From Microglena sp. YARC (taxonomy: Eukaryota > Chlorophyta > Chlorophyceae > Chlamydomonadales > Chlamydomonadaceae): a DNA stretch of 64,000 nt. Location: NCBI GenBank assembly GCA_022414725.1, contig JAJSRW010002113.1, positions 1 to 64,000 of the forward strand, written 5' to 3'. The notes beneath the pieces are model-generated. The model was not told where the DNA came from, did no database searches, and was given only the letters and a program-made list of their open reading frames with translations. Positions 12,475 to 62,330 of this stretch are shown here, piece after piece (position 1 is the stretch's first letter; each line of letters begins with the position of its first letter). Both the position numbers and the translations under genes were made by a program.

Positions 12475-12490
12475 TGTCTAGGTTTAGAAT

Positions 12491-29124: not shown

Positions 29125-29187
29125 GTGGCGGTGATGGTGGTGGTGGCAGTGGTGATGGCAGTGGTGGTGGCAGTGGTGGTGGCAGTG
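29125..29187 (+). repeat. ggtggtggcagt microsatellite
   Basis: Degenerate GGT/GGCAGT repeats separate the original tail from the first extra tail copy. Confidence 0.8.
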
Positions 29188-29564: not shown

Positions 29565-29626
29565 TGTTGGTGCGAGCCATTTTAAATTGCACACAAACAT
29601 GCAGCCGACCCTATGGGGGGATGTAT

Positions 29627-34568: not shown

Positions 34569-34631
<63 letters not shown>
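34567..34631 (+). repeat. (CAT)n microsatellite
   Basis: About 21 uninterrupted CAT units lie directly after the BTB fragment. Confidence 0.95.
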
Positions 34632-34654
34632 ATGTGCATACACACGTGTGGCCC

Positions 34655-35224
34655 TGCCTATTACGGGTTTCTGAGCTGTTGCATGATGCCAGTAATGTAT
34701 TTGATTGACAAAGCTCCCTGGGCAAGGATGGCAAGCTGCCTGTGCAACTAGATTCAAAAAAATTGACTGATGTTGATGTAAGCCATTCCAATGCGCTTAC
34801 ACGCATGTGGCCCACTGGCCCTGCCTATTTAAGGTTTCTGATCTGTTGCATGATGCCAGTTATGGATTGGATTGGCGGAGCTACCTGGACAAGAAAGGCA
34901 AGCTGTTTATGCAACTAGATTGGAAGACATGGAGTGTTGTTGAAACGAGCCATTCCAATGCGCATACACGCATGTGGCCCTGCCCATTTAAGGTTTCTGA
35001 GCTGTTGCATGATGCCAGTAATAGATTGGATTGGCGAAGCTACCTGGACAAGTATGGCAAGCTGTCTGTGCAACTAGATTGGAAGATACGGAGTGTTGTT
35101 GAAACGAGCCATTCCAATGCGCATACACGCATGTGGCCCTGCCTATTTAAGGTTTCTGAGCTGTTGCATGATGCCAGTAATAGATTGGATTGGCGAAGCT
35201 ACCTGGACAAGTATGGCAAGCTGT
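34655..35224 (+). repeat. 160-bp tandem repeat made of BTB coding tail plus 3' UTR
   Basis: Four units of about 158-164 bp. Each has the family 3'-UTR element gagctgttgcatgatgcc (starts near 34674, 34838, 34999 and 35159), then a tail-like coding piece (SYLDKYGKLSVQLDW) and the phrase 'cattccaatgcgcatacacg'. The stop codon is lost in some units, so they read into one another. Confidence 0.85.
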
Positions 35225-43540: not shown

Positions 43541-44159
43541 TTGCTGGGTTGTATTGCAACGGGTTGTGTTGTGTTGTGTTGCGTACTGGACCAGTATTGT
43601 GTTGAGTTGTGTTGTTCAGTTTGGTGGTGCTGTGCTGTTTTGTGTACTAGTGCGGTATTGTGTTGAGTTGGGTTGTGCCGTGTGGTGGTGCTGTGCTGTG
43701 TTATGTACTGGTGAGGTATTGTTTTGAGTTGTACTGTGTTGTGGTGCTGTGCTGTGTAATACTGTTTTGTTTTATGTTGTGTACTGGTGCAGTATCGTGT
43801 TGACTTGTGTTGTACTGTGTAGTGGTGCTGTGCTGTGTAATGCTGTTGCGTTTTGTTGTGTTGTGTGCAGGGTACTTCCATTGACCAAATTGGCGAGCGC
43901 TTTAGCGCACTTGAAAAAATAAAAGCTGCGCTTTGTAGTGCAAAAAGCGCAAAAATTGCTTGCTGCGCCCACAGGGGGTTGCAAAAATCTGCGCGAAACG
44001 CGCAGTGGGCCTCAAAAAGGCAGCGCGCCAGCGCGCAAAAGTGCGCGCTTGGAAGTGCCCTGGTTGTGTGCAACGCATCAGACAGCCACAGAGGTGCTAC
44101 TAACCTGTTGTCTTGCGTTTAAATGTGTTGTGTTGTGTACTATTGTGTGATGTTGACAC
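43541..44159 (+). repeat. (GTGTT)n-rich microsatellite
   Basis: Irregular ttgtgttg/gtgctgtgctgt repeats on both sides of an M1 MITE. Confidence 0.8.
43868..44062. mobile_element. MITE family M1, with perfect target duplication
   Basis: A 195-bp element, CAGGGTACTTC...GGAAGTGCCCTG, flanked by gttgtgtg at 43860-43867 and 44063-44070, inside the microsatellite. Confidence 0.9.
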
Positions 44160-44761
44160 GACCTACCGCATCGTCGAACACATGCAGCATCTTGGGCCTT
44201 TGTATGGGCAGGGCATAAGTACTGCCCTTCAAGGTTATCAGGGTGTTGCATCGTGTTGTGTTGCGTTGTGTTGTGTACTATTGTGTAGTGTTGACATTAC
44301 CTACCACATCATCAAACACGTACAGCTTCTTGAGTCTTTGTATGAGCAGGGCATCAGTACTGCCCTTCAAGGTTATCAGGGTGATGCATTGTGTTTTATT
44401 GTGTTGCATTGTGTTGTGTTGTGTTGCATTGTGTTGGGTACTACTGTGTGGTGTTGACATTACCTGCCACATTATCAAACACATACAGCTTCTTGAGCCT
44501 TTGTATGAGTAATGCCTCAGTACTGCCCTTCAAGGTTATCAGGGTGTTTCATTGTGTTTTATTGTGTTGCATTGTGTTGGGTACTATTGTGTGGTGTTGA
44601 CATTACCTACCACATTATCAAACACATACAGCTTCTTGAGCCTTTGTATGAGCAATGCCTCAGTACTGCCCTTCAAGGTTATCAGGGTGTTGCATTGTGT
44701 TTTATTGTGTTGTGTTGTGTTGTGTTGCATTGTGTTGCATTGTGTTGCATTGTGTTGTGTA
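44160..44761 (-). repeat. four copies of the 3' half of LRR exon h
   Basis: Each copy carries 'gggcagtactgaggc', 'atacaaaggctcaagaagct', 'gtttgata' and 'ggtaggtaatgtcaacacc' (minus-strand reading), separated by (CAACA)-type microsatellite. They lie at about 44155-44240, 44295-44375, 44475-44545 and 44605-44690. Confidence 0.85.
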
Positions 44762-44926
44762 CTATTGTGTGGTGTTGACGTTACCTACCGCATCATCAAA
44801 CACGTACAGCTTCTTGAGCCTTTGTATGAGAAAGGCCTCAGTGCTGCCCTTCAAAGTTCTCAGCGAGGAAGTGGAGATGTACAAGGTGCGCAGCTGTGTG
44901 AGGCGTGCTAGCTCACTGGGCAGGCT
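44762..44926 (-). CDS. LRR gene exon h (probable last exon)
   Basis: Acceptor 'catccacccag', then [18 protein letters not shown]... ending [18 protein letters not shown] and TAG (44762-44764). A donor-like gcg|gtaggt at 44788 offers an alternative end. The TAG recurs in downstream partial copies, which favours a terminal exon. Confidence 0.75.
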   Translation of the reverse strand, partial: SLPSELARLTQLRTLYISTSSLRTLKGSTEAFLIQRLKKLYVFDDAVGNVNTTQ

Positions 44927-47344
44927 CTGGGTGGATGAAGGGGTGGGTGGGTGGGTGCGTGGGTGCGTGGGTGGGTGAGTGAGTGAGTGAGTGAGCGAGC
45001 GAGTGAGTGAGTGAGTGGGTGAGTGGGTGGGTGAGTGAGTGAGTGAGTGAGTGAGTGAGTGAGTGAGTGAGTGAGTAGATGGGTGGCTGCAAGGGTGGGT
45101 GGGGGCCGAGATGTAACAAGGTGCGCAGTTGTGTGAGGCAGGCTAGCTCACTGGGCAGGCTCTGGGTGGATAAAGGGGTGGGTGGGTGGAGGGTGGGTGG
45201 ATGCAAGGATGGATTGTGGAGGAGATGTACAAGGTGTGCTGTTGTGTGAGGCATGCTAGCTCACTGGGCAGGCTCTAAGAGGATGAAGGGGTGGGTGGGT
45301 GGAGGGTGGGTGAATGAGTGGGAGGGTGGGCGGGTGGGTGCAGAAGGGTGGGTGGGCGGAGGCGAAGATGTACAAGGTGTGCTGTTTGTATGAGGCACGC
45401 TAGCCCCCTGGGCAGGCTCTGTTCAGGGTGGGCAGGTGGGGGGAGCGTTGGGTGGGTGTAGGGGTGGGTGGGTTTGTAGGGTGGGTGGGTCAGTGAAGGG
45501 GTGGGTGGGTGGATGATGGGGTGGGTGGGAGGGTGGGTGGGTGAGTAGGAGGGTGTGGGTGTGGGTGGTTGCCAATATGGGTGGGTGGTTGGGTGCAGAA
45601 GGGTGGTTGGGCCGAGGCGAAGATACACAAGGTGTGCTGTTGTGTCAGGCACGCTAGCCCCCTGGGCAGGCTCTGTTCAGGGCAGTTGCACCAGGCCTGG
45701 CAACTCCCTGCAGCTAAACAGTGAGCCCTCCCCCCCCTCCCCACCACCACCCACCACCCATCCACAAACACATGCGCACACACACCTAACACCTGTTTCC
45801 ATTTATGCGCAGTTGCACCAGGCCTCACAGCTCCCCGCAGCTAGGAGTTGATCAGTATTGATCAGCTCGCCTCTCAGATCAAAACAATCCAAGCAGGACT
45901 CCACACCACCCCACTCCTACCTCACCACCCTATACCCCCCCCACAAACACATACCCCCCCCCCCCACCCACCCACCCACCCACCCACCCACCCACACCTG
46001 AAACCTGTTTCCATTGATGCGGAGCTGCACCAGGCCTACCTCAACCCCCTAACCCCCCCCCCCCCCCCCCCCCCCCACCACCCACACCTGAAACCTGTTT
46101 CCATTGATGCGCAGCTGCACCACTCCTACCTCACCACCCTATACACCTGCCCCCCCCCCCCTCCCTGCCCCCCCCCCCCCCCACCCACACACCCACACAC
46201 CCCACCACCACACACTCACCTGAAGCCTGTTTCCATTTATGCGCAGCTGCACCAGCCCAGACAACTCTCCGCAGCTAGAGGGTAAGGTGCTCATCAGCTT
46301 GTCACTCAAATCCAAACACCCCAAGCTGGACTCCTCACCCACCTATACACCTACCCTCCCCCCACACCCACACCCACCCACCCACCCACACCTACCCACC
46401 CACACACCTGAAACATGTTTCCATTTATGCGCAGCTGCACCAGGCCAGACAACTCTCCGCAGCTAGAGGGTAAGGTGCTCAGCAAGTTGTCACTCAAATC
46501 CAAACACTCCAGGGACGCCAGGTTGCCCAAAGAGAGGGGCACAAGGGTGAGAGCGTTTCCATGCAAGTCAAGGTCCTTGCAAGCCATTAGGGCTCCGATG
46601 CCTGCATGTGTGTGTGTGTGTGCGTGTGCGTGTGTGGCAAAGTATAAATTCAAATTCAAGTTCAAATTCGAATCCAAGCACTCCAGGGACGTCAGGTTGC
46701 CCAAAGACAGGGGCACAAGGGTGAGAGCGTTGCCATGGAGGTCAAGGTCCTTGCAAGCCATCAGGGCACCGATGCCTGCATGTGTGTGAGCGTGCGCGTG
46801 TGTGTGTTGAAATTTACATTCAAATTCAAGTTCAAATTCGAATTCAAGCACTCAAGGACCGTCCGGTTGCCCAAAGAGAGGGGCACAAGGGTGAGAGTGT
46901 TGCCATGCAGGTCAAGGTCCTTGCAAGCCATCGGGGCACCAATGCCTGCATGTGTGTGCGTGTGTGTGTGTCCAAGTATAAATTAAAGTTCAAGTTCAAA
47001 TTTGAATTTGAATCCAAGCACTCGATGGACGACAGGTTGCCCAAAGTGAGGGGCGCTAGGGTGAGAGTGTTCCCATGCAAGTCAAGGCCCTTGCAAGCCA
47101 ACAGGGCTCCAATGGCTGCATGTGCATGTGCGTGTGTGTGTGTATATGTTTGTGTGTGTGTGTGTGTGTGTTCAATTATAAATTCAAATTCAAATTTTAA
47201 TTCGAATCCGAGCACTCCAGGGACGACAGGTTTCCCAAAGACAGGGGCACAAGGGTGAGAGAGTTCCTATGCAGGTCAAGGTCCTTGCAAGACATTAGGG
47301 CTCCGATGCCTGCATGTGTGTGTATGTGTGTGTGTGTGTATGTA

Positions 47345-47399
<55 letters not shown>

Positions 47400-50300
47400 A
47401 AGTATACATTCGAATTCAAAATTAATTCGAATCCAAGGAATCCAGGGACACCAGATTTTCCAAAGTGAGGGGCGCTAGGGTGAGAGTGTTCCCACGCCAG
47501 TCAAGGTCGTTGCAAGCTATCAGGGCTCCGATGCCTGCATGTGCATGTGCGTGTGTGTGCGTCATGTGTATGTGTTTGTGTGTGTGTGTGTGTGTGTGCG
47601 TGTGTGTGCGTGTGTGTGTCATGTGTATGTGTTTGTGTGTGTGTTTCGAAGTATAAATTCAAGTTCAAATTTAAAATCGAATCCGTGCACACCAGGGACG
47701 CCAGGTTGCCCAAAGACAGGGGAACAAGGCTGAGAGCGTTTCCATGCAGGTCAAGGTCCTTGCAAGCCATTAGGGCTCCGATGCCTGCATTTGCGTGTGT
47801 ATATGTCCAAATTAATATCAAATTTAAACCACCAGGCCCTTCAGGGGGATTTTCAATACCTGGAACTGTAAAAAATAGTGTAGAAAACTCATATGCTATG
47901 TTGCCCAAAGAGAGGGGCACAAGGGTGAAAGAGTTGCCATGTAGGTCAAGGTCCTTGCAAGCCAACATGGCTCCGATGCCTGCATATGTCTGTGTTTATG
48001 TGTCCAAATGTAATATTCATTTTAAACCACCAGGCGCTTCAGGGGGATTTGTTTATATCAGAAACTGTCTGAAACTGAAAAAACATTGTAGAGAACTCAT
48101 AAATAGTAACGCTTATTTCAAATTAACAAGTCCTATGCAGCGTCGCAAGCGACGCGGAAAATTGGCGGAGTGTGTTGGCAACGAAACAAAGGTGGCAACG
48201 ATGTACCTGACCGAAGCGAGTTAGTTTCGCGACCGTTGGATGACGTGTCAGGCTTCAAGCATTTGTTTTGTTGGATGGTCTAATGGGTAAACATGGGGGC
48301 TCCCGCCCCCTTGAAGAGGGGGCTCCGCTAAAAAATGCTCATTACCCCCCCCCCCCCCCTCCCCCCCCCCACACACCCTTCCCCCCCCCACAGCGGCGCC
48401 TTCTTGAGGTAGTGGATGCGGCTGGCGAGGAAGAGGACAGACAGCACAACCACACACAGCCACAACCAGACACACACACACACACACACAGAGGACAGAC
48501 AGCCACAGCCACAACCACACACACACACTCACACACACACACACAGAAGACAGACAGCCACAGCCACAACCACACACACACACTCTCTCTCTCTCTCTCA
48601 CACACACACCACCACCACCACACTCACTCACTCAAAACACAACCAAGGTGGGTGGCCCCAACGTCAACCTCACGCCTCGTAATTGAAATTGAAATTGTTA
48701 CATCCGTGTAATACATTCCCTCACAGGACGTGAAGTTAAGGACACCACAGCGTAAGCCGGAGCTAGCTATAGTCACCGACGCCTCGTAACATTATATTCA
48801 TTGATTTATTAATTCAATAAAACCGAGAAAAAGATACATGATAATATAATTATGCCCTTCAACTATTGAACATTAAACTAGAATACTATACTACTTTTGT
48901 ATACTGTATTATTATACACTTATACTTGTGCATTTTATATTATTATACCCTTATACTAATTTATACTGTATTATTATACACTTATACTTGTGCATTTTAT
49001 ATTATTATACCCTTATACTAATTTATACTGTATTATTATACACTTATACTATTTTATACTATACTGCTCTACCCTAATATTATTTTATCATCATGACTCA
49101 CCCAGGGGTAAGTAATCAAGGCTATTGGAGGCAAGGTTGATGACACCCACAGTGCCAGATACCCCCCCCACCCCCACCCCACCCCACCCCCCCAATCGTA
49201 TAACATTATTATACCCTTAATCTATGCCATTACCATTACTCTACCATTACATTTTACCTACACTACCATGCCATTACCATTACACTACCATTACATTTTA
49301 CCTACACTACCATGCCATTACCATTACACTACCATTACATTTTACCTACACTACCATGCCATTACCATTACACTACCATTACATTTTACCTACACTACCA
49401 TGCCACTACCATTGCACTACCATACCATTACCATTACACCCTTATACTATGCGCTTATAATCTTATACTATTGTATACTATACTGTTATGCCCTCATATT
49501 ATGTTATCATCATGACTCACCCAGGGGTAAGTACTCAAGGCCATTGGAGGCATGGTTGATGACACCCAGGGCGCCAGGTTAGCCCCCCCCCACCCCCCAC
49601 CCCCCCATACCCACCCACACCACACACATTATAACATTATGTTATCCTTATATTATGTTATCATCATGACTCACCCAGTGGTAAGTACTCAAGGCTATTG
49701 GAGGCAAGGTTCAACCACTTCACGTTTCTCAGCTGGCAGAAGGACTCTGGCTGCAAGGTTGAAGGTGTGAGGAGACAGAGTGAGCACAACAATGATGGTG
49801 TGAGAATGCAGTGTGTTCTCACAATGGTGAACATGGAAGGGCGCAGTTAAGCAAGCTGTGGGTCTAAAGAGGTTGATGCCACTTCATGCTTCTCAACTGA
49901 CAGAAGGACTCTGGCTGCAAGGATGAAGGTGTGAGGAGACAGAGTGAGCACACCAATGATGGCGTGAGAATGTAGTGTGCTCTCACAATGGTGAACATGG
50001 AAGGGCGCAGTATAAGCAAGCTGTGGGTCAAGGAGAGGTTCAGCCACTTCATGCTTCTCAGTTGACAGAAGGACTATGGCTGCAGGGATGGACGGGTGAG
50101 GAGACAGAGTGAGCACACCAATGATGGCGTGAGAATCTAGTGTGTTCTCACAATGGGCAACATGGAAGGGCGCAGTATAAGCAAGCTGTGGGTCAAGGAG
50201 AGGTTCAGCCACTTCATGTTCCTCAGCTACTGAAGGACTACGGCTGCAAGGATGGACGGGTGAGGGCATAGAGTCAGCAAAAGGATGATGGCGTGAGGGT

Positions 50301-52975
50301 ATAGAGTGCTCATATAACACAAATTGCTATCCTACCAGATTCCTTAAGCAGTTGTGGTACCACACACACACACACACACACACAAACTCACAAATACAAA
50401 TCGCCATCCTACCAGATTCTTTAAGCAGTTGTGGTGAGCATCCAAATACTCCAACATCATCAGCGACGATATCGAGGGCGGCAGGTACGCAATGCGGTTA
50501 TGCGACAGGTCAGCGTACTTCAGTAGACGCAGCTCCGAAACCATGCGCGGCAGTACGCTGATGCCGTTAGCACTGAGGTCGAGGTGGCGGAGCTCTGTGA
50601 GGGAGCTCAGACACATTGGGTAGGGGGAAGCTGGTCAGCACTTAGGGGTGGAGAGAGGGGGTGGAGAGGGGGGGGTGGGGTGGAGAGAGGGGGGGAATGG
50701 GGGGAATGTGTGTGTGGGGGGGAAAGGGGGGAGAGAGGGGGTGGGGAGGGGGTGGAGGGGGTGGAGAGAGGGGGCGGAGAGGGGGTGGAGGGGGTGGAGG
50801 GGGGGGGTGGGGTGGGGGTGGAGGGGGGGGAGAGGGGGGGAGGGGAGAGGGGTCAGCACTTAGCTGGTCAGAATTTGGATTTAGGTGGTTCAGGTTTAGG
50901 TGGTTTAGGTTGAGTCGGTTTATGTCATTAGGTGGTTTAGGTTAAGTCGTTTTATATGATTAGGTGGTTTAGGTTTAGTTGCTTTAGGTGATAAGGTGGA
51001 TTAGGAAAATAACTGTTGACCAGCTTCTCCCCACCTACAGTCTAGTGAGTAGCAATATGATTTTGTATGATATTATACGATGCCGGCAGGCTGACTAGGC
51101 TAGAGTTACCAATGGGGTAGGTCTCAATGGCGTTGTTGGGAACGCTGAGTTGGGTGAGCTGCCTCAGATGAGGTGTTAGTGTTGGTGTTGGTGTTGGTGG
51201 TGTTGGTGTTGGTGTTGGTGGTGTTGGTGTGGGTGTTGGTGGTGTTGGTGGTGGCGTGGTGTTGGTGGTGTAAGTGGCGCTGGTGTTGGTGTTGGTGTTG
51301 TTGGTGTTGGTGTTGGCGTGATGGTGGTAAAGGTGTTGGCGTGGTGATGTGGTGGTGGTGGTGGTGGTGGTGATGACGTGGTGCTGGAGGGAAAATTATG
51401 GTAAGACACATGGGGTAGGCTTCAAGGGCATTGCTAGAGACGCTGAGTTGGGTGAGCTGCCTCAGATGAGGTGGTGGTGGTGGTGGTGTGGTGGTATAGT
51501 GGTGGTGTTGGTGTTGGTGTTGGTGTTGGTGGTGGCGGTGTTGGTGGTGTTGGTGTGGGTGTTGGTGGTGTTGTTGGTGTTGTTGGTGGCGTGATGGTGG
51601 TGGTAGTGGTGGAGGTGTTGGCGTGGTGATGTGGTGGTGGTGATGGTGGTGGTGGTGGTAGAAGTGGAGGGGTTGGCGTGGTGATGTGGTGGTCTTGGTG
51701 GGTGGTGGTGGTGGTGGTGGTAATTGGCGGTGATGGTGGTGGTAGTGGTGGTGGTGGCTGTGGTGGTGGTGGCGTGGTGTTGGTGGTGGTGGTGGTGGCG
51801 TGGTGAGGGTGTTGGTGGTGGCATGGTGGTGGTGGTGGTGGCGTGGTGAGGTGGTTGGTGGTGCGTGGTGGTGGTGGTGGTGGCGTGGTGGGTGGTGGTG
51901 GTGGTGGGTGGTGGTGGCGGCGTGGTGAGGTGGTGGGTGGTGGTGGCGTGGTGGTGGTGGTGGTGCGTGGTGAGGTGGTGGTGGTGGCGTGGTGGTGGTG
52001 GTGTGGTGGTGGTGGCGTGGTGGTGGTGGTGGTGGTGGTGGCGTGGTGAGGTGGTGGTGGTGGCCGTGGTGGTGGTTGTGGTGGCGTGGTGAGGTGGTGG
52101 TGGTGGCGTGGTGGTGGTGGTGGTGGCGTGGTGGTGGTTGTGGTGGCGTGGTGAGGTGGTGGTGGCGTGGTGGTAGGTGGCGTGGTGAGGTGGTGGTGGT
52201 GGCGTGGTGGTGGTGGTGGTGGTGGTGGCGATGTGAGGTGGTGGTGGTGGCGTGGTGGTGGTGGTGGTGGCGTGGTAGTGGTGGTGGCGGCGTGGTGAGG
52301 GTGGTGGTGGTGGCGTGGTGGTGGTGGTGGCGGTGTGGTGAGGTGGTGGTGGTGGCGTGTGGTGGTGGTGGTGGCGTGGTGAGGTGGTGGTGGTGGCGTG
52401 TTGGTGGTCGGGTGGCGGTGTGGTGAGGTGGTGGTGTGGTGCGTGTTGGTGGTGGTGGCGGTGTGGTGAGGTGGTGGTGGTGGCCGTGTTGGTGGTGAGT
52501 GGCGGTGTGGTGAGGTGGTGGTGGTGGCTGTGGTGGTGGTGGTGGCGTGGTGAGGTGGTGGTGTGGTGATAAGGCGGTGCTGGAGGGAAAATTGGGGAGG
52601 GGTGTGCGTGGGTTTTAAAAGTGCCCCTACCTGAGGCAAATGGGTCAGGTCTCAAGGGCGTTGCTGGAGGCGCTGAGATGGGTGAGCTGCCTCAGATGAG
52701 GGGGTGGTGGTGGTGGTGGTGGTGGTGCGTGAGGGGGTGAGGGGGTCAGGTTGGTGAGTGTGGTGGTGGTGACGTGGTGCTGGAGGTGAAATTAGAGAGA
52801 TGTGTGTGTGGGTTTCAAAAGTGCCCCTACCTGAGGCACATGGGGCAGGTCTCAAGGGCGTTGCTGGAGACGCTGGGTTGGGTACTTGAGTGAGCTTCCT
52901 CAGATGAGGTGGCGAGGTGGTGGTGATGTGGTGGTGTGGTGAGGCGGTGCTGGAGGGGAAAGTTGGGTGGATGGA

Positions 52976-53012
<37 letters not shown>

Positions 53013-53898
53013 GGGGGGGGGAGGGGGTCAAAACTGCTCCCTACCTCAGACACATTGGGTAGGCCTCAAGGGCGTTGCTGGAGACGCTGAGTTGGGTTAG
53101 CTGCCTCAGTTCACCCAGGGGGAGGGGGAGGTCGCGCAGCAGGTTGTAGGCGAGGGAGAGGTCTTTCAGGCTATGAAGGTGAGAAATGCTGTCAGGAAGG
53201 GTGTGGATGGAGTTGCCTGCAGGAAGTGTGAGGATGTGGGTGTGTTGTTACAGTCCAGGGGTAGGCCAGATAAATAATACAACGACGAATACTACTACTA
53301 CTACTACTTCTAATACTTATAAGAATAGGGACTTGCCCGACCGTGGCGGGTTCAGTAAGGTGAGGAGAGGTCTTTCAGGCCATGCAGGCGAGAGATACTG
53401 TCAGGAAGGGTGTGGATGGAGTTACCTGCAGAACAGGGTGAGGGTGAGGGTGAGGGTGTGTTGTTACAGTCCAGGGGTAGGTCACATAAATAATACTCAT
53501 AAGAATACTACTGCTAATACTACTACTTCTAATACTTATAATACTTGCCCAACAGGGACAGGTTGTAGGTGAAGGAGGTCGTTCAGGCTATGCAGGCGAG
53601 AGATACTGTCAGGAAGGGTGTGGATGGAGTTGCCTGCAGAACAGGGTGAGGGTGAGGGTGTGTTGTTACAGTCCAGGGGTAGGTCACATAAATAATACTC
53701 ATACGAATACTACTGCTAATACTACTACTTCTAATACTTATAATACTTGCCCAACAGGGACAGGTTGTAGGTGAAGGAGGTCGTTCAGGCTATGCAGGCG
53801 AGAGATACTGTCAGGAAGGGTGTGGATGGAGTTGCCTGCAGAAAAGGGTGAGGGCGAGGGCGAGGGTGTGTTGCTACAGTCCAGGGGTAGGCCCAATA

Positions 53899-53954
<56 letters not shown>

Positions 53955-54221
53955 GAAGAAGAAGAATACATACATAATCAAGAATAATACTGTAATACAT
54001 GATGGTGAGGGAGAGGTCTTTCGGTCCATGCAGGTGGGGGATGCTGACAGGAAGGGTGTGAATGGAGTTGCCTGCATGTAGGTATGTGTGTTGTTACAGT
54101 CCAGGGGTGGGCCGAATAATAAATAATAATAAATACATAATAATAATACATAATACATAATACAACTGAGCGTGGGGTGTCAACAAAATACTTCTTGAAC
54201 ACCTGCTGATAATACACAAGA

Positions 54222-54264
<43 letters not shown>

Positions 54265-54324
54265 ATATAATATAAATATAATAATAATAATATTAGTAAT
54301 AATAATAATAATACCGGTAACCCG

Positions 54325-54360
<36 letters not shown>

Positions 54361-57300
54361 GTAATAATAATAATAATAACAACAATAATAATAACAATAA
54401 TAATAATAATAATAATAATATAATAATAATAATAATAAATAACAAGAAGGTAAGGGTGAGGGTGAGGGTGAACCCATTTTAAAAAAATATTCCATCATTG
54501 ATCTGTTCGGGGTTGGCCCCAATTGCAAAACAACGGGCTCGCCGTATAAGGGTAAGGGTGAGGGTAAGGTTAGGGTGAGGGTGGGGTGGAGGTGGGGGTA
54601 TGGATAAGGGTAAGGGTGAGGGTGGAGGTGGGGGTATGGATAAGGGTAAGGGTGAGGGTAAGGTTAGGGTGAGGGTGGGGGTGGAGGTGGGGTATGGATA
54701 ATGGTACGGAGAGGAGGGTAAGGTGAGGGTGAGGGTGGGGGTGGAGGTGGGGGTATGGATAAGGGTAAGGGTGAGGGTAAGGTTAGGGTGAGGGTGGGGG
54801 TGGAGGTGGGGTATGGATAAGGGTAAGGAGGAGGGTAAGGTGAGGGTGAGGGTGGGGGTGGAGGTGGGGGTATGGATAAGGGTAAGGGTGAGGGTAAGGT
54901 GAGGGTGAAATTGTCAGAGTGTGTTGGCAACGGAACGAAAGGTGGCAACGATGGAGCTGACCGAAGCGAGTTATTTACGTGACCGTTGGATGACGTGTCA
55001 GGCTTCAAGCAGTTTTTCGGTTGGACAAACGGACAAATGGGTCAACATGGGGGCTCCCACCCCCTTGAAGAGGGGGCTCCGCCAAAAAGTACCTGCCCTG
55101 GTGCCTGTGGGGGTAAGGATGCCCCTTTTTCTGAAAACTGCCTGCCCTGGTGCCAGTGGGGATAAGGGTGCACAGTGCAAACTGAAAACTGCGCCTTATG
55201 CTGAAAAGTGCCTGCCCTGGTGCCTGTGGGAATAAGGGTGCACTTCTGCTGAAAACTGCCCCTTACGCTGAAAACTGCGCCTTCTGCTGAAAAGTGCCTG
55301 CCCTGGTGCCTGTGGGAATAAGGGTGCACTTCTGCTGAAAACTGCCCCTTAAGCTGAAAACTGCGCCTTCTGCTGAAAAGTACCTGCCCTGGTGCCTGTG
55401 GGAATAAGGGTGCACTTCTGCTGAAAACTGCCCCTTACGCTGAAAACTGCGCCTCATGCTGAAAAGTGCCTGCCCTGGTGACAGAGGGGGTAAGGGTGCT
55501 CTTATTCTGAAAAGTGCCCCTTTTGCGTGCCTGGCCTCTCTTTACAATCTAGGTTCCAAGAGAAACCCACCTGACAGGTCCAGGTTGGCAAGGCAGCCAT
55601 AGCTGTCGAATGGCACCTCCGCTAGGTGGGTGATGGAGTTCTTGTCCATCTTGAGGCAGCTCAAGCCTGAGATACCTGGAACAAAGTGAGTAAGTGAGTG
55701 AGTGAGCGAGTGAGTGAGTGAGTGAGTGAGTGAGTGAGTGAGTGAGTGAGTGGTGGAGTTCCTGTCCATCTTGAGGCTGCTCAAAGCTGGGATACCTGGA
55801 ACAAAGTGTAAGAGAGGAAATATTTACATGTTTTGTATGTTATAATAGAGTTTTATTTTAATTATGGCGTTAAAATTGTCAAAGGGCGTTAGGTGGTGTG
55901 ATGTGATGTCAAACCTGGGATACCTGGAACTAAGTATAAGAGAGACAATATTTCCATGTTTTGTATATTATAAGTTGTAATTTAATTATGGTGTTAAGAT
56001 TGTCAAAGGGCGTAAGGTAGTGTGATGTGATATCAAACCTGGGAAACCTGGAACAAAGTGTAAGAGAGCAAATATTTCCATGTTTTGTATATTGGAATCG
56101 ATTGTAATGAAATTTTATTTTAATTATCAAAGTATTTAAATTATCAAAGGGCGTTAGGCGGCGTGATGTGATGTCAAACCTGGGATACCTGGAGCGAAGT
56201 GTAAGAGAGACAATATTTCCATATTTTGTATGTTATAATCAAGTTTAATTTTAATTATGGTATTAAATTGCCAGAGGGGTGTTTAGGGGGTGTTGATGTG
56301 ATGTCAAACCTGGGAGACCTGGAGCAAAGTGTAAGAAAGCCAATGTATCGCGGCAGGACCGCTGTTTTACAGTGTAAAACGTTTCATCTGAGTGAGTGAG
56401 TGAGTGAGTGATAGGAGTGATGGGAGTGAGTGCCAAGCGCAATCTTCAAGCATGCTTTTGACGGAACATTGCAGGCTGCAGCAGTTCAGTTAGGCGACCG
56501 GTATGCATGCACAGTTCTGACAATTGTATCAGGTTGAGTGCCAAGTCAAGCCAAGCCAAGCCAAGCCAAGAAAAAAATTGCGTCAGATTGCTCTCCTTGA
56601 GTTGAGTGCCAAGTCAAGCCAAGCCAACAATTGTGTCAGGTTGCTCTCCTCAAGTTGAGTGCCAAGCCAAGCCAAGTCAAGCCAAGCTAGCCAAGCCAAC
56701 AATTGTGCCAGGTTGCTCTCCTTGAGTTGAGTGCCAAGTCAAGCCAAGCCAACAATTGTGTCAGGTTGCTCTCAATGAGTTGAGTGCCAAGCCAAGCCAA
56801 GCCAAGCCAAGCCAAGCAAAAAATTGTGTCAGCTTGCTCTCCTCGAGTTGAGTGCCAAGTCAAGCTAAGCCGAAAATTGTGACAGGGTTGCTCTCCTCTG
56901 GTTGAGTGCCAAGTCAAGCCATGCCGAAAATCGCCTCAGATTGGTCTCCTCGAGTTGAGTGCCCCCAAGTCAATAGCGTGGCACTTCATTAATATAATCT
57001 AAACAGCCAGAAGCACAAAGAAGTCAATATGATGATGAAACAAGTCCTATGCGGCGTTGCAAGTGATGCCGAAAATTGGTGGATTGTGTTGGCAACATAA
57101 CGAAAGGTGGCAACGATGGAGCTGACTAGCCAGTTAATTACGAGACAGTATGCTGGCATGCCAGGCTTCATTTTTATGGTCGGTTGGACAAACGGACAAA
57201 TGGGTAACCCTGAGGCCTCCCGCCTCCTAGTAGGAGGGGCTCTGCCAAGAAGTAGACGCGAGTCGGCACGAGGGCTCACGAGGGATGCGACGGGGGGGAA

Positions 57301-60300
57301 TCGAACACCCGTCTGTTCCGTGGCAGGGAACTATGCTACCACTATACCACCGCCGCATCTTTGTGATGTCTAATTTGAGTTGTTTGCTTACATATACCCC
57401 AGTAAAGAATTGCGTTTCCGCGCGCAGCGCGAAAAAGTCATAGGCGCCCCCTCTCTCTCGCGCGCGCGCGCGCGAAAAAGTCATAGACGCGTCGCAAGGG
57501 ACGCGGAAATAGTAGGGTGCCCTGGCGGGTCCCCTGGAGGTCGGCCCTGGGCTCGTGCGTCGTACTCGGTGAGTCGGACTATTAGGTTGTAGTATCGGGG
57601 GCGTTGAGCTATTATATGCATGCTGTTCTGGCTATGAAGGGTCGGAATGTACGGGTAGCGATGATGGGAGCTCGGAGCTGAGTTGGGATGCCACTTATGA
57701 AGGAACGTTGTGCGTGAGGGAAAGAGATGCTGAACGGCGATGGGTCAAAGGTGTAGAGGCCGCCTCCGATCGACCGGGTCCCGGGTACGGGTTTGGAGCG
57801 AGGGTACCTGAAGGGAAGCAGGGTAGTTGGTTATTTGGTCGGTAACGTCGTTATACATTACTTTACCAGCGAACTTACAACCGGTGGTTTCGACAAATCC
57901 CGGTGGTTTCGCCAAACCTATTATTTCGACTTGCGATTTCGACGAACCCACGTGGTTTCGCCTGTTATTTCGCCTGTATTGTGGTTTCGCCATGGTCTCG
58001 CGCGTTTCGCCAATTTTACCAACCGTATTGTGGTGTCGATGCATAGGTCTGGTTGCCTTCGGGCCGACCAACCAGCGGAGAATGTTGGCTATCGGAGCGA
58101 CATGTAACCAAAGGTTGCGAAAGGCCTGCCGCTTATCAAGGCAGCCAAGGGAGCGGGACAGAGGTGGAGCTGCCGAGCTGGAGCGACGCAGACCCTGTGC
58201 GGGTCGTTGTGAGAGCTAGGAGAGCCTAGCAGCTGGAGTACGAAGGCCTATGCATAGCATTGAGTTAGATTTTCAAGCGACCGCTAGATACCGTTGCCCT
58301 TAGGCTAATGGTCCCTTACTGACGCTTCCAGGTGTTGAATTAAAACATGGCTGTAGGCACAGACTGGAACAGACGATACTGATCTGAGGACTTAAAGGCT
58401 TTTTGGGCTGTTTGGTTGTTTTGCATATTCGTTTCCCCATGCCTGGCCTTGCTTCTTCCTGGCCTACCCAAAGGACCTGGTCTTAGTAGTAGAGTGTGTT
58501 ACGGAAAATTGCCCTATAAATACATTGATCTTGCTTGCACACTTGTTTCTAGACATTGTAATTGATGCTGTAGAACTAACGGGTCTGGGTCAACGCCTCA
58601 GGTCAAAGCGTCGTGATGCCCTTCGGCCAGACACCCGACTACCCGAGCATAGTTTTGCGCCTTATTTACTGCGGACACTTTGACTGATATGTTAGCTACA
58701 TTCAGCTACATGGCATGTTTTCTATTGCCTGATCATATGTATCGCGGCAGGACCGCTATTTAACAGTGTAAACCATTTCATCTGAGTGCGTGCGTGATTG
58801 TGTGAGTGAGTGCGTGAGTGCGTGAGTGCGTGAGTGAGTGAGTGAGTGAGTGAGTGAGTGAGTGAGTGAGTGAGTGAGGATGGGAGGGATATGAGTGAGT
58901 GACGTCCCCCTGTCTCTCCCAATCCCACAACCCAGGCCAAGCCACCACCTACCCGTCCACTCAATGCACCTTCTCCTACCCCTCTCACCACCCACCCCAC
59001 CCACCATGTTGCCACATCTCCTTAACCCCCGCACCCCCCCAACTAGGACCAAGCCACCACCTACCCGTCCACTCAATGCTCCCTCTCCTACCCCTCTCAC
59101 CACCTATCCCACCCACCATGTTGCCACGTCCCTTTATACCCCCCAACCTCCCAACTCAGGTCAAGCCACCACCTACCCGTCCACCCAATGCACTTTCTCC
59201 TACGCCTCTCACCACCCACCATGTTGCCACGCCCCCTTATCCCCCCAATCCCCCAACTCAGGCCAAGCCACCACCTACCCCTCTCACTACCCACACCACG
59301 CACCATGTGGCAGAGATTCACAGTGGTTGCTGCTACAGTCCAAGGATCTGAGTCTAACCATTGCGCCCATGTTCCGAGGGAGTTCCTGTAGCCTATTCCC
59401 AGCCACACCCCCTTATCCCCCCAACCCCTAAACTCAGGCCAAGCCACCACCTACCCCTCCACCACCCACCCCACCCACCAAGCGGGAGAGATTCACAGTG
59501 GTTGCTGCTACAGTCCAAGGATCTGAGTCCAACCATTGCGCCCATGATCCCAGGGAGGGCCTGCAGCCTATTCCCAGCCACACCCCCTTATCCCACCAAC
59601 CCCCAAACTCAGGCCAAGCCACATCTACCCCTCTCACCACCCACCCCACCTACCAAGCGGCAGAGATTCACATTGGTTGCTGCTACAGTCCAAGGATCTG
59701 AGTCCAACCATTGCGCCCATGTTCCGAGGGAGTTCCTGTAGCCTATTCCCAGCCACATCAAGCGAGTGCAGCTTGTGGAGGGCAGTCAGGGTGGGGGGGA
59801 GCTCAGTCAGTCGGTTGGTTCCAGCGCGCAGGATGGCAAGGGCAGTCATGGAGTGGATGTCAGAGGGGAGGTCTTGCAAGAAGTTGCTGGAAGCTATCAT
59901 CACCTCCAAGTTTTTGAGTCCGCGTCCTAAGCCCCCTGGCAGGTGCTCTATCTTGTTGGAGGAGAAGTCGAGGAATGTGAGCTGCTGCAGGTATGTTGCA
60001 CCCTCAGGCAGAAGGGTTAGCTGATTGCGTGAGATCTGGAGGTGCTGGAGGTTACTGTAACAAAGGAGGGGGGGGGGGGGGGATAAAAGGGACGTATGTC
60101 TGATCTGTGTGTTCTGGTTTGTGCGCTTGTATGGGTCTGTAATTGAGGGGTGTTTGGGACAATGTGAGGTGCTGCAGGTATGTCACACCCTCAGGCAGAG
60201 AGGTCATCTGGTTGCGTGAGATCTGGAGATGCTGTAGGTCCCTGTAACGAAGGAAGGGGGGTGGGGCAAGGGAGTACGAGGGACGCACGTCTGATTCATG

Positions 60301-61850
60301 TGTTCTGGTGTGTGTGCTTGTTTGGTTTTGTAATTGAGGGGTGTTTGGGACAATGTGAGGAGCTGTGACAAAGGAAGGGGGGTGAGAGGTGGGGTGGGGT
60401 GGGCTGGGGCGAGGGGGAAGAAGGGACTTACATGCGTGTTTGTGTGTTCTAGTGTGGGTGTTTGTGTGTTCTAGTGTTGGTGTTTGTGTGTTCTTGTGTG
60501 GGTGTGTGTGATCTTGAGTGCGAATTTGAGTGGGTGTATGGAATGGGGAGGCAAGGGAATGTGAGGTGCTGCAGGTACGTCACACTCTCAGGTAGAGAGG
60601 TCAGCTGGTTGCGTGACAGGTCCAAGTTGCGTGACAGGTCAGCTAGTTGCGTGACAGGTCAGCTAGTTGCGTGACAGGTCCAAGTTGCGTGAAAGGTCAG
60701 CTGGTTGCGTGACAGGTCCAAGTTACGTGACAGGTCAGCTAGTTGCTTGACAGGTCCAGGTTGCGTGACAGGTCAGCTAGTTGCGTGACAGGTCCAAGTT
60801 GCGTGACAGGTCAGCTAGTTGCTTGACAGGTCCAAGTTGCGTGACAGGTCAGCTGGTTGTGTGACAGGTCCAAGTTGCGTGACAGGTCAGCTGGTTGCGT
60901 GACAGGTCCAAGTTGCGTGACAGGTCAGCTAGTTGCTTGACAGGTCCAGGTTGCGGGACAGGTCAGCTAGTTGCGTGACAGGTCAGCTAGTTGCGTGACA
61001 GGTCAGCTATGTCCAAGTGTTTCTGTGAGGTCCAGCATACACAGCCGAGCTCAGAGTGACAAGTTTGTAGTGTGTGTTATTTTGTGTGTGTGTGTGTGGT
61101 GCGGTGTGTGTTTGTGTTGGGGTGGTGTGAGGAGCACGCATACACCACTGAGCTCAGAGTAGTGTCTTTTTAGTATGAGTTATTTTGTGTGTGCGTGTGT
61201 GTTGGGGTGGTGTGAGGAGCATGCGTACACCGCTGGGCTCAGAGTAGTGTCTTTTTAGTGTGTGTTATTTTGTGTGTGCATGTGTTTTGGTGTGTGTTTG
61301 TGTTGGGGTGGTGTGAGGAGCTCAGAGTGATGAGTTGTTAATGTGTGTTATTTTGTGTATGCGTGTCTGAGGGGGTGGGGTGGGGAGGTGGGGAGGGCGG
61401 TTATTAATATGAACTGCCTACCTCAAGCCCTCAATACCCTCTGGAAGAGTATCCATCTTGTTCATCCTCAGGTCCAAGCTTTGCAGGGAGGAGCACGCAT
61501 ACACTGCTGAGCTCAGAGTAGTGAGTTGGTTGCACGCAACGCTTATCGACTCTAGCTGGCCCAGGGCCCCAAAGCCGCACTGACTCAGCGTCGCCAGGTG
61601 GTTGTTGGATGCTTTGAGGACGCGCAGGGAATATAGGGGGGCCAGGTTGGGAAGCTTGGTCAAGGCATTGGAGCTGACATCGAGGGCAGTGAGATTGGAT
61701 AGACATTCGAGTTCGGTTGGCAATCTGGTTAGTTGGTTGGAAGAAACATCCAGCATTTCCAACCGCTCCAGTTGTAGGATGGAGGACCAGAAGTTGGGAT
61801 CCCATCGCAGCTTCGTGTCTAGGAGAGATGCTTTGGTGTGGATGTTGAGG
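44762..61850 (-). CDS. large intron-rich leucine-rich-repeat protein gene (eight exons assembled, 5' end missing)
   Basis: Exons on the minus strand, in order: 61850-61422, 60054-59654, 55675-55571, 53216-53045, 50605-50413, 49750-49675, 46601-46408 and 44926-44762. Every junction has GT-AG and matching phase: AG|T, G|GT, G|GC, AG|C, 0, G|GC, 0. The product is an uninterrupted run of about 577 residues of LRRs with the LxxLxLxxNxLxxLP pattern (for example [19 protein letters not shown] and [15 protein letters not shown]). No kinase, membrane or signal segment is visible. The architecture and the ending (LRTL...[15 protein letters not shown]) recall LRRC40/SHOC2-type cytosolic LRR proteins; that name is inference. 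Known LRR domains of this class act as protein-binding scaffolds. The 5' exon(s) were not found. Introns of 0.66-4 kb are filled with copies of the exon edges and microsatellites. Confidence 0.85.
44927..46407 (-). repeat. LRR intron g-h, built from two arrays of exon edges
   Basis: On the minus strand the intron begins with copies of the 3' edge of exon g plus donor ('ggtgcagctgcgcataaatg', at about 46227-46330, 46089-46125, 46003-46045, 45797-45848 and 45683-45715). It ends with copies of the 5' edge of exon h ('agcctgcccag', 'gctagc', 'cctcacac', at about 45616-45682, 45362-45425, 45218-45283 and 45109-45165). The spacers are (GTGG)/(CCCA) and (GTGA) microsatellites. The two arrays meet near 45683. 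Confidence 0.85.
46408..46601 (-). CDS. LRR gene exon g
   Basis: Acceptor 'acacacatgcag' and donor cag|gtgtgt. It encodes [18 protein letters not shown], then [16 protein letters not shown], then [16 protein letters not shown] and NGNMFQ. 194 nt, phase 2 to 0. Confidence 0.88.
46602..47990 (-). repeat. seven tandem copies of the 5' half of LRR exon g with acceptor
   Basis: Each copy has the 'tgcag' acceptor and 'gcatcggagccctaatggct' to 'ctggagtgc' of exon g (about 100 nt). The copies are separated by (TG)n and 'aattcaaattcaagtt' spacers. They end near 46778, 46953, 47117, 47310, 47540, 47790 and 47983. None has a donor. Confidence 0.88.
48118..48335 (+). repeat. dispersed repeat R1, near full length
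   Basis: From 'acaagtcctatgcagcgtcg' to the hairpin 'gggggctcccgcccccttga' / 'agagggggctccgct' and an A run. Confidence 0.75.
48683..48778 (-). mobile_element. SINE family S2, full-length, minus strand
   Basis: A 96-bp element with a perfect 11-bp TSD, acgcctcgtaa, at 48672-48682 and 48779-48789. It lies inside an LRR-gene intron, on the same strand as the gene. Confidence 0.9.
49090..49565 (-). repeat. two copies of the 3' half of LRR exon f with donor
   Basis: Copies at about 49093-49145 and 49508-49560 carry 'aaccttgcctccaatagcct' and 'acccctgg|gtgagtcatga' (minus strand) but no acceptor half. Confidence 0.85.
49219..49440 (+). repeat. 44-bp tandem repeat, about five copies
   Basis: The unit is 'ccattaccattacactacca' plus 'ttacattttacctacactac' and 'catg'. 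Confidence 0.9.
49675..49750 (-). CDS. LRR gene exon f
   Basis: 76 nt, acceptor 'caaccttgcag', donor ctgg|gtgagt. Encodes [20 protein letters not shown] then EYLPLG. Phase 0 to 1. Confidence 0.86.
49855..50270 (-). repeat. three copies of the 5' half of LRR exon f with acceptor
   Basis: Units of about 166 bp holding 'ttgcagccagagtccttctg' and 'agcatgaagtgg' (minus strand), followed by a shared 'cactcattgttg'-type intron segment. They lie near 49875-49920, 50036-50085 and 50206-50246. Confidence 0.85.
50413..50605 (-). CDS. LRR gene exon e
   Basis: 193 nt. Encodes [39 protein letters not shown], then [19 protein letters not shown]. Donor ctg|gtagga. The acceptor AG is the end of a 19-nt copy of exon d's 3' edge (50606-50624). 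A short copy of its own 3' edge lies at about 50333-50350 beyond a (CA)n run. Confidence 0.85.
50636..51110 (+). repeat. G-rich (GGGTGGAG)-type and 'aggtggttt' repeats in intron d-e
   Basis: Strongly G-rich plus strand at 50636-50850, then ttaggtggtttaggt repeats to about 51000. Confidence 0.85.
51110..52910 (-). repeat. four copies of the 3' edge of LRR exon d in giant (ACC)n microsatellite
   Basis: Copies at about 51112-51175, 51408-51475, 52637-52700 and 52825-52905 carry 'cacctcatctgaggcagctc', 'acccaactcagcgtctcc', 'agcaacgcccttgag' and, in two cases, the donor 'ag|gtaggggcac'. Between them lie 0.2-1.2 kb of (CAC/CAA)n. The 400-codon T/P/H-rich frames here are microsatellite artefacts. 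Confidence 0.87.
53045..53216 (-). CDS. LRR gene exon d
   Basis: 172 nt, acceptor 'cttcctgcag', donor tgag|gtaggg. Encodes [39 protein letters not shown] and [17 protein letters not shown]. Phase 1 to 2. Confidence 0.88.
53330..54085 (-). repeat. four copies of the 5' half of LRR exon d with acceptor
   Basis: Units of about 200-235 bp; acceptors 'ctgcag' near 53425, 53632, 53834 and 54070. Each holds 'gcaactccatccacaccctt' and 'cctgacag' then diverges. The intron part between them carries (TTA)n or (TAG)n and a shared 'cccctggactgtaacaac' phrase. Confidence 0.86.
53895..54445 (+). repeat. (AAT)n and (ACT)n microsatellites
   Basis: Long (aat)n at 53895-53955 and 54280-54440, and (act)n at 54222-54262. 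Confidence 0.93.
54540..54910 (+). repeat. (GGGTAAGGGTGA)-type minisatellite
   Basis: Degenerate 6-bp-based repeats, gggtaa/gggtga/gggtgg, with a higher-order unit of about 60-110 bp containing 'ggggtatggataagggtaag'. It resembles telomeric repeat types but is interstitial and irregular. Confidence 0.85.
54910..55090 (+). repeat. dispersed repeat R1
   Basis: From 'agagtgtgttggcaacggaa' to 'gagggggctccgccaaaaa'. Confidence 0.75.
55088..55530 (+). repeat. 86-bp tandem repeat
   Basis: 'cctgccctggtgcc' recurs at about 55092, 55141, 55211, 55297, 55383 and 55469. The later spacing is a constant 86 bp. Confidence 0.88.
55571..55675 (-). CDS. LRR gene exon c
   Basis: 105 nt, acceptor 'ctttgttccag', donor tcag|gtgggt. 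Encodes [20 protein letters not shown], then [14 protein letters not shown]. Phase 1 to 1. Confidence 0.88.
55685..56345 (-). repeat. five copies of the 5' edge of LRR exon c with acceptor
   Basis: 'ctttgttccag|gtatcccag' (minus strand) recurs near 55795, 55925, 56045, 56180 and 56320. The first copy keeps about 40 nt of exon and then runs into (CACT)n. The others have units of about 125-140 bp with 'gacatcacatcac'. Confidence 0.84.
56343..56400 (+). repeat. direct repeat, left copy
   Basis: 'tgtatcgcggcaggaccgct', 'acagtgtaaa' and 'gtttcatctgagtg' recur at 58738-58790, 2.4 kb away. Confidence 0.85.
56525..56965 (+). repeat. (CCAAG)n-containing tandem repeat
   Basis: Seven or more units of about 60-90 bp with 'gttgagtgccaagtcaagcc', (aagcc)n and 'aattgtgtcaggttgctctc'. 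Confidence 0.88.
57040..57255 (+). repeat. dispersed repeat R1
   Basis: From 'acaagtcctatgcggcgttg' to 'taggaggggctctgccaaga'. The tRNA gene follows about 30 bp later. Confidence 0.75.
57286..57356 (-). tRNA. tRNA-Gly (anticodon GCC)
   Basis: 71 nt on the minus strand form a cloverleaf. Acceptor stem GCGGCGG/CCGTCGC has one G-U pair; discriminator A. The anticodon stem GTTCC/GGAAC is perfect around CTGCCAC (anticodon at 57322-57324). The T loop is TTCGATT. A box (tggtatagtgg) and B box (gttcgattcc) are present. The T stem GGGTG/CCCCC has one mismatch and the D stem is weak, so a recently decayed copy cannot be excluded. No CCA is encoded. It lies in LRR intron b-c. Confidence 0.8.
57357..58737. 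other. unassigned part of LRR intron b-c
   Basis: (CG)n-rich run at 57445-57480, then unique-looking GC-balanced sequence. About 57886-58014 is dense in 'ggtttcg' and 'atttcg' motifs. A weak R1-like trace lies near 58085-58140. No exon was seen. Confidence 0.45.
58738..58880 (+). repeat. direct repeat, right copy, and (GTGA)n
   Basis: Second copy of the block at 56343, followed by (gtga)n to about 58878. Confidence 0.85.
58915..59600 (-). repeat. copies of the 3' edge of LRR exon b and intron units
   Basis: About 59484-59590 and 59310-59410 repeat the last ~100 nt of exon b ('gggcgcaatggttggactca', 'ccttggactgtagcagcaac', donor 'ttg|gtgggt'). From 58925 to 59300 the intron part alone continues as units of about 120 bp ('gccaagccaccacctacccg'). 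Confidence 0.85.
59654..60054 (-). CDS. LRR gene exon b
   Basis: 401 nt, acceptor 'ctttgttacag', donor cttg|gtaggt. Encodes [93 protein letters not shown] and [16 protein letters not shown]. Phase 2 to 1. Confidence 0.9.
60165..60625 (-). repeat. two copies of the 5' edge of LRR exon b
   Basis: 60165-60246 reads [18 protein letters not shown] with the acceptor 'cgttacag'. About 60560-60625 reads [20 protein letters not shown]. Both stop matching after 'ctgcagcacctcaca' and have no donor. Both keep the frame that follows exon a, so use as alternative first parts cannot be excluded. Confidence 0.83.
60597..61016 (-). repeat. minisatellite grown from an LRR codon segment
   Basis: About twenty units of ttgcgtgacaggtc followed by caag or agctag. 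On the minus strand the unit is gacctgtcacgcaac, the codons for the D-L-S-R-N of the LRR motif in the adjoining exon-b copy. Confidence 0.9.
61017..61400 (+). repeat. tandem repeat with (TG)n in intron a-b
   Basis: Three or four units with 'cgagctcagagt' (the 3' part of exon a's 'tgagctcagagtagtgag'), 'ttattttgtgtgtg' and 'ggggtggtgtgaggagc'. These again echo a piece of exon a. Confidence 0.75.
61422..61850 (-). CDS. LRR gene exon a (most 5' exon found)
   Basis: 429 nt, donor cttgag|gtaggc. Encodes [82 protein letters not shown] and [18 protein letters not shown]. The acceptor is taken as 'ctggtcgcag' at 61851-61852. The frame is open further upstream through the 12-bp repeat, so the true exon start is uncertain. 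N-terminal residues before the first LRRs are missing. Confidence 0.82.
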
Positions 61851-61860
61851 CTGCGACCAG

Positions 61861-62330
61861 CTGGCAGTCCAGCTGGCTGTCCTCCTGTCAGTCCTCCTTG
61901 CAGTCCAGCTGGCAGTCCACCTGGCAGTCCAGCTGGCTGTCCTCCTGGCAGTCCAGCTGGCAGTCCTCCTGGCAGTCCTCCTGGCAGTCCACCTGGCTGT
62001 CCTCCTGGCAGTCCTCCTGGCAGTCCTCCTGGCAGTCCAGCTGGCAGTCCACCTGGCAGTCCTCCTGGCAGTCCTTCTGGCAGTCCAGCTGGCTGTCCTC
62101 CTGGCAGTCCTCCTGGCAGTCCACCTGGAAGTCCTCCTGGCAGTCCTCCTGGCAGTTCACCTGGCAGTCCTCCTGGCAGTCCACCTGGCTGTCCTCCTGG
62201 CAATCCTCCTGGCAGTCCAGCTGGCAGTCCTCCTGGCAGTCCTCCTGGAAGTCCACCTTGCAGACCACCTGGAAGTCCACCTGGCAGACAACCTGGCAAT
62301 CCACCTGGCAGTCCACTCCAGAGGGCTGGA
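61861..62330 (-). repeat. 12-bp minisatellite (about 38 units) upstream of exon a
   Basis: The plus-strand unit is ctggcagtcctc or ctggcagtccac. The period is a multiple of three, so every frame is open (GLPGGLPGG on minus, SPPGSPPG and WQSSWQSS on plus). The minus frame continues into exon a. The unit resembles the exon's own acceptor region (gactgccagctgg), so I read it as amplified intron end and not as a collagen-like domain. Confidence 0.82.

Follow-up and report, generated by a model that had tools for sequence, protein, structure and literature searches.

Ordered arrays of half-exon copies beside the exons of an LRR gene and of other genes in the green alga Microglena sp. YARC

Introduction

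How do introns grow, and how does the spliceosome tell a true site from an equal-looking neighbour? These old questions are raised by an LRR gene of the green alga Microglena sp. YARC, most of whose exons are accompanied by partial copies of themselves. The gene lies in a stretch of 64,000 nucleotides (positions 1 to 64,000 of JAJSRW010002113.1; hereafter the window), which is part of a 100.9-kb contig (C694) of a 568-Mb genome in 2390 contigs. In this work we asked where the copies stand relative to the exons, whether the layout recurs in other genes, how the arrays may have grown and whether the half exons are likely to be used.

Results

Structure of the LRR gene

The gene occupies positions 61857–44762 of the minus strand and is composed of eight exons with AG/GT borders and in-phase joins, ending with a TAG stop at 44762. 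Exons b to h were placed through the AG...GT sites that yield a single open frame to this TAG, the borders being defined by AG/GT, phase and LRR register only. Exon a (61422–61857) has its 3' end set, with the donor GAG/GTAGGC, and a frame that is open upstream. Exon b (59654–60054) is bordered by TTACAG/TAAC and CTTG/GTAGGT. Exons c (55571–55675), d (53045–53216), e (50413–50605), f (49675–49750) and g (46408–46601) were set by AG/GT and phase, and exon h (44762–44926), which carries the TAG stop, by its AG acceptor and phase. The Pfam profile LRR_8 matches a 546-amino-acid part of the protein with E = 1.8e-58. In a protein search of the whole genome close matches were found on C694 only, other LRR genes showing 22–44% identity, and the best 120 of 1407 homologue matches are generic LRR proteins, with no close homologue among them.

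Two other features of the locus were observed. Directly upstream of exon a and in frame with it, a 12-bp unit (CCACCTGGCAGT on the plus strand) is repeated 38 times (61857–62316, minus strand); this array codes for a Leu-Pro-Gly-Gly type repeat and the open frame continues to 63130. In the introns, at 48330, 55090 and 57240 (minus strand), an element recurs (GGCGGAGCCCCCTCTTCAAGGGGG and similar), one copy of which adjoins a tRNA-Gly gene; it looks like a dispersed short element.

Half-exon copies and their order

Copies were searched by BLASTN, each exon with 30 nt on either side being compared with a 20.7-kb region, and matches with E≤1e-6 were kept, those above 1e-6 being dropped. Upstream and downstream copies, respectively, number 0 and 1 for exon a, 2 and 3 for b (the third is short), 1 and 0 for c, 4 and 4 for d, 0 and 0 for e, 3 and 2 for f, 7 and 4 for g, and 4 and 4 for h. 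The copies of b to h (E from 5e-7 to 7e-45) are all partial, on the same strand as the exon and organized in head-to-tail arrays. The original prediction placed halves with an acceptor upstream of the exon and halves with a donor, or with the stop codon for h, downstream, and this is what we observe: copies of a 5' border are all upstream, copies of a 3' border are all downstream, and no wrong-side copy was detected in the gene by BLASTN at E≤1e-6. Four copies hold no border: two downstream copies of d, the upstream copy of b that lies farther off, and the single copy of a, which is internal to that exon.

The predicted numbers of copies were recovered for three exons, all on the minus strand. 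Exon d has four upstream 5'-half copies with acceptor (53358–54081) and four downstream 3'-part copies (51112–52883), of which two keep the donor (52883–52810 and 52742–52610) and two are devoid of it (51484–51404 and 51167–51112). Exon f has three upstream 5'-half copies with acceptor (49870–50273) and two downstream 3'-half copies with donor (49073–49557, that is 49557–49492 and 49138–49073). Exon h has four upstream 5'-part copies with acceptor (45108–45675) and four downstream 3'-part copies that extend beyond the stop codon (44110–44685). For g, seven upstream and five downstream copies had been announced; the seven 5'-half copies with acceptor are present (46657–48003), four 3'-part copies with donor were found downstream by BLASTN (45758–46323), and the fifth piece, read by eye just before the first h copy, has no donor. 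For b, expected to have two on each side, there are two upstream 5'-part copies (60161–60616), the far one without acceptor (60616–60556) and the near one with it (60266–60161), and, downstream, two 3'-part copies with donor (59275–59582) and a third, short copy (59006–58976). The five upstream copies claimed for c (55746–56336) are reached when four acceptor-side copies from lower-scoring alignments are added to the one found at E≤1e-6, and only one of the five is a true half exon (55816–55746). As predicted, these lower-scoring alignments also contain, downstream of e, a short copy of its end that includes the donor (50322–50362). We also note that acceptor copies of c at 56020–56336 (minus strand) read CCAG/GT, so that acceptor and donor dinucleotides abut as they do at a recursive-splice site.

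The copies differ from their own exon by 3–27%, and tandem arrays of period at least 50 cover 43% of the LRR gene region. Head-to-tail units of tens to hundreds of base pairs fit the form of minisatellites. Whole-exon copies with both splice sites, as in mutually exclusive exons of the Dscam type, are absent, copies in the window gene having at most one border. An origin as Introner elements, in which one family is spread over the introns of many genes, seems less likely from the window gene, where the copies match their own exon by BLASTN.

The same layout in other genes of the genome

The proposed search for half-exon arrays beside exons of other genes found such copies in LRR, kinase, CCT and kinesin genes, and describing the layout as a property of one gene was therefore too narrow. 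The genes examined are a convenience sample, found through LRR, kinase, CCT and kinesin queries, and their borders are approximate where tblastn or profile stretches served. Directly tandem units that cross a border, combining a piece of an intron with a piece of the exon next to it, occur in the LRR, kinase and CCT genes.

In the other LRR loci (41 segments at 20 loci), copies of a 5' border lie upstream in 32 cases and downstream in 4, and copies of a 3' border lie downstream in 43 cases and upstream in none. Thus 75 border-crossing copies are on the right side versus 4 on the wrong side, the remainder of the 129 copies being whole (3) or internal (47). Right-side copies were found for 15 of the 41 segments, and 40 of the 75 come from L009 (3546–4031) and L024. 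These segments were delimited by tblastn rather than by known exon borders, neighbouring pieces having been merged by hand; hits with less than 75% identity, shorter than 40 nt, covering less than 25 nt of the segment or overlapping were dropped, and the count omits one opposite-strand low-complexity segment of L009. Arrays of period at least 50 make up as much as 53% of other LRR loci, and less than 9% of L011, L012 and L021; two LRR loci on small contigs, L010 and L018, have none. The array property is uneven across the assembly, since these last two loci lack it and the other three are poor in it. L010 and L018 have almost no tandem repeats at all, unlike most other loci, and possibly belong to another organism or to a part of the genome that behaves differently.

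For the kinesin profile PF00225, 19 of 142 matches overlap a stronger neighbour nearby. Of these, 5' parts upstream account for 6 and 3' parts downstream for 10; none is on the wrong side, 2 are whole and 1 is inner. Among the 16 right-side copies, 9 have E≤0.002 and the other 7 have E from 0.06 to 7.4. For the CCT chaperonin profile PF00118, the 87 matches include 8 that overlap a stronger neighbour (four 3' parts downstream, three 5' parts upstream and one inner), with the limits that two of the seven right-side copies may be ordinary neighbouring exons and that several E-values are weak. In both families pairs more than 6 kb apart or with an overlap of fewer than 12 profile positions were dropped; every such pair was listed for CCT, and for kinesin the best partner of each copy was taken, ends within 12 positions counting as exon ends.

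Three loci give a closer view of these copies. A CCT exon (L051) is followed by two halves in which the donor CCAG/GTTAGTGTG is preserved and indels shift the frame of both; upstream of this exon is a copy of its 5' part that is cut by the end of the stretch, its own border lying outside. A cyclin-dependent-kinase exon (L049; two frames are open, of which frame 0 was taken) is preceded by a half whose acceptor reads CTGCAG and which contains a TAA in frame. In the paralog of this kinase (L050), one exon has two upstream and four downstream copies, and the next exon has two and one; the four downstream copies of the former have a GT donor in two cases, GC in one, and have lost it in one. The kinase exons of L049 and L050 resemble plant-type CDKB.

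Other arrays of the window

Outside the LRR gene, the layout recurs in a BTB/BACK-type gene on the plus strand (27560–29062), downstream of which its 3' end, stop included, is repeated three times (29185–29606). Read as 27560–29122, the gene contains a TGA in frame, at about 29060, some 60 nt before the stop of its paralogs, and then the three copies of its own 3' end. It stands in a cluster of BTB/BACK-like genes that each consist of one long reading frame (3059–15553, 25333–29062 and 33980–34471); one gene of the cluster was searched and has 12 homologues, 11 from EukProt 'biopygen' and one from a metagenome contig (jgi). A 159-bp array of 3.7 units at 34630–35224 (plus strand) encodes a tail like the C-terminus of a BTB gene and is perhaps another 3'-end array. 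A 4-kb array at 15940–20016 (plus strand) is made of 22/53/75/97-bp units (ACATGGCCCTCTGCCTTGCATC...), with several plus-strand frames open.

Growth and placement of the arrays

In the ten arrays of the LRR gene that were compared, identity to the complete exon drops with distance from it (S = 26, permutation P = 0.0033; copies of c and e and the short third copy of b were omitted). The f upstream, h upstream and h downstream arrays are strictly ordered by identity; the gradient is not seen in d downstream (87, 73, 82, 88) and b downstream (93, 94). This gradient fits repeated duplication at the edge of the exon, and supports the idea that older copies have been pushed outward.

Duplication across exon-intron borders had been proposed as the one mechanism acting on the whole gene. 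Head-to-tail arrays and the identity gradient support repeated tandem duplication, and some of its units do cross borders, but these are not preferred targets. By a single BLAST criterion, a spanning copy is present at 12 of 15 borders and, when 400 points are taken at random along the gene, at 321 of them (Fisher P = 1.0); intronic points outside microsatellites have one in 159 of 205 cases, exonic points in 16 of 34. TRF arrays of period at least 50, which miss several of the BLAST copies, cover 7 of the 15 borders, for 6.5 expected by rotation (P = 0.52). A border hotspot was accordingly rejected for the LRR gene, which is saturated with duplications, exon interiors being the least affected.

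Signs of use and of disuse

Changes private to one copy amount to 79 N and 33 S, as expected under neutrality (72.5% N, P = 0.67), versus 14 N and 16 S for changes private to the complete exon, which differ from the neutral expectation (P = 0.003) and from the copy-private changes (Fisher P = 0.018). The pattern of exon-private changes supports the view that the LRR gene is functional. Copies of f and downstream copies of g include some with in-frame stops and some with indels; stops are also present among the downstream copies of h, and indels among copies of d and the upstream copies of h. The exonic part of the seven upstream g copies is free of both. The claim that the cell ignores the halves as decoys is backed indirectly by the neutral pattern of changes and by the stops or frame-shifting indels of several copies, and, judging from the sequence, the halves are most likely not used by splicing.

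Decoy acceptors kept their AG in 24 of 24 cases, versus 16.1 expected from background (P = 0.008) and 20.2 from exonic background and array consensus (P = 0.036). Retention of decoy donors (11 of 13) is not unusual (P = 0.28 and 0.57). Some constraint could act on the 24 acceptors; we do not take their retention as proof of use. Selection on decoy splice sites is not claimed here, since the result for acceptors weakens to P = 0.036 under the stricter background and that for donors is null.

The d/e intron

The 19 nt that immediately precede exon e (50606–50624, minus strand), identified from the sequence and the exon boundary, repeat the end of exon d; this copy supplies the acceptor AG of e and is followed by CTCC, not GT. 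The d/e intron has ...CTGAG both before its donor and at its acceptor. This acceptor AG preserves the LRR frame and the next AG upstream would not, as read by eye for these two sites. We infer that the d/e intron owes its origin, or its present border, to the same duplication process; at its junction we may be seeing how a duplicated exon end gives rise to an intron or reshapes one.

Discussion

The arrays described here are very probably minisatellites that arose by very frequent, untargeted tandem duplication, in which border-crossing units leave a whole exon with a half outside it. Units of about 50–370 bp would be duplicated frequently and without regard to gene structure, and some would happen to hold one exon-intron border. 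When the unit consists of an intron end and an exon start, the product is a half exon, an intron end and the whole exon, which leaves an acceptor half without donor upstream; a unit made of an exon end and an intron start gives the mirror image, with a donor or stop half downstream. The orderly layout would follow from the geometry of one-border tandem duplication and no sorting mechanism is needed, as wrong-side copies would require dispersed, inverted or whole-exon duplication. By the same geometry, nothing but the real exon lies between the last copy with an acceptor and the first copy with a donor. Provided that splicing picks the innermost acceptor–donor pair, the protein would remain unchanged, and such duplications would pass selection while introns lengthen and later duplications push older copies outward. 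The halves would be ignored by exon definition, each being devoid of a partner site at exon distance, and the process may occasionally supply a working splice site, as suggested by the acceptor of exon e, a putative case of intron remodelling or gain.

Some features of the locus might point to other origins. C694 is rich in simple repeats, as might be expected if the arrays had been created by the assembly; their divergence from the exons shows that they are not simple assembly duplications, some copies carry indels of their own, and the same layout is present on the large contigs C1, C3, C4, C5 and C6 (LRR loci L013, L014, L022, L023 and L024, and the CCT locus L051), which makes an artefact extremely improbable. 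A mechanism aimed at splice junctions, for example through R-loops or spliceosome-linked breaks, would account for copies at 12 of 15 borders, but random points of the LRR gene are spanned equally often, in a comparison made on one gene with points that are not independent, and TRF arrays over borders are no commoner than by rotation. We regard such a mechanism as very unlikely.

Another possibility, which we hold to be unlikely, is that half exons are real alternative exons, acceptors or donors that diversify the protein. The complete retention of decoy acceptors and the intact exonic parts of the seven upstream g copies are in its favour, and the nearest of these copies (174 bp, open frame) would, if used, add 58 residues in frame; moreover, a duplication in potato has yielded a spliced new intron (PMC4974935). 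Changes private to the copies are nevertheless neutral in N/S, and stops (f, g and h) or indels (d, f, g and h) affect copies in the LRR gene just as stops or frame-shifting indels affect the kinase and CCT copies. The spacings of the g array (174, 170, 170, 194, 225, 250 and 195) are not multiples of three in four of seven cases, and a half has no partner site through which it could be joined to the other half. In lamprey VLR genes, cassettes act as gene-conversion templates, and partial LRR pieces flanking an LRR gene bring to mind a similar diversification of LRR exons. This analogy is hardly credible here, as the layout is shared by kinesin, CCT, kinase and BTB genes, the copies are tandem, ordered and less exon-like with distance, and exon-private changes show constraint, not diversification. 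A diversification confined to LRR loci is ruled out by the presence of the layout in these four other kinds of genes.

Decoy acceptors are copies of the real one that would be transcribed earlier and that, from the sequence evidence, are apparently skipped; decoy donors come after the real donor. A rule by which the first AG or the first transcribed site is chosen would select decoys, and the layout argues against it, given a functional gene. Should cDNA confirm the skipping, a first-come-first-served choice would be ruled out for such genes and exon definition would be favoured. The identity gradient, for its part, orders the steps of intron growth. More tentatively, and with the odds somewhat against so wide a claim, tandem duplication over exon borders might be a main way in which introns lengthen and are occasionally created throughout this genome, checked only by exon definition. 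Very many exons would then have decoy acceptors on their upstream side and decoy donors on their downstream side, all of them nearly identical to the true sites, and the genome would offer a natural test of 'first site transcribed' versus 'nearest acceptor–donor pair'.

Several known systems share part of these features. In the potato RdRp gene PGSC0003DMG402000361, a single tandem duplication over an intron–exon border produced a new spliced intron (Ma, Lan and Niu, 2016; PMC4974935). As here, the unit crosses one intron–exon border, the acceptor side is copied and the copies have diverged by substitutions. The potato case is nevertheless one event at one border, in which the half copy became a spliced exon by means of a cryptic donor, whereas in Microglena sp. 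arrays reach seven copies, 12 of 15 borders and several genes are concerned, and the halves look unused. In human genes that lie in segmental duplications, minisatellite changes occur at exon–intron boundaries (De Grassi and Ciccarelli, 2009; PMC2812944); there too, minisatellite expansion overlaps the borders and alters gene structure. The human units are 30 bp on average and belong to genes of recent segmental duplications, and the accessible part of the article describes no ordered layout of 5' halves upstream and 3' halves downstream along a whole gene. According to a review (PMC3443670), tandem genomic duplication is the only route of intron gain shown in vivo. The d/e intron, with ...CTGAG at either end, recalls this route in that a direct duplication supplies splice sites (PMC3443670 and PMC4974935); in the classic form outlined there, however, a duplication confined to exon sequence creates a new intron, whereas most copies described here lengthen existing introns. 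Another repeat-rich green alga, Cymbomonas tetramitiformis, has a mean intron of about 297 bp, and the available part of its genome description mentions no half-exon arrays (PMC5741210). A search of the open-licence literature by titles and the beginnings of abstracts found no half-exon layout on the scale of a gene or a genome, and an earlier report is possible. The original prediction that no gene with such a layout had been described consequently holds, as far as the accessible parts of these reports go, for the scale of the phenomenon only, single events being on record in potato (PMC4974935) and human (PMC2812944). What appears to be new here is that the duplications form arrays rather than occurring singly, and that these arrays flank several exons on either side and are found in several gene families, with halves that seem, from their sequence, to be unused.
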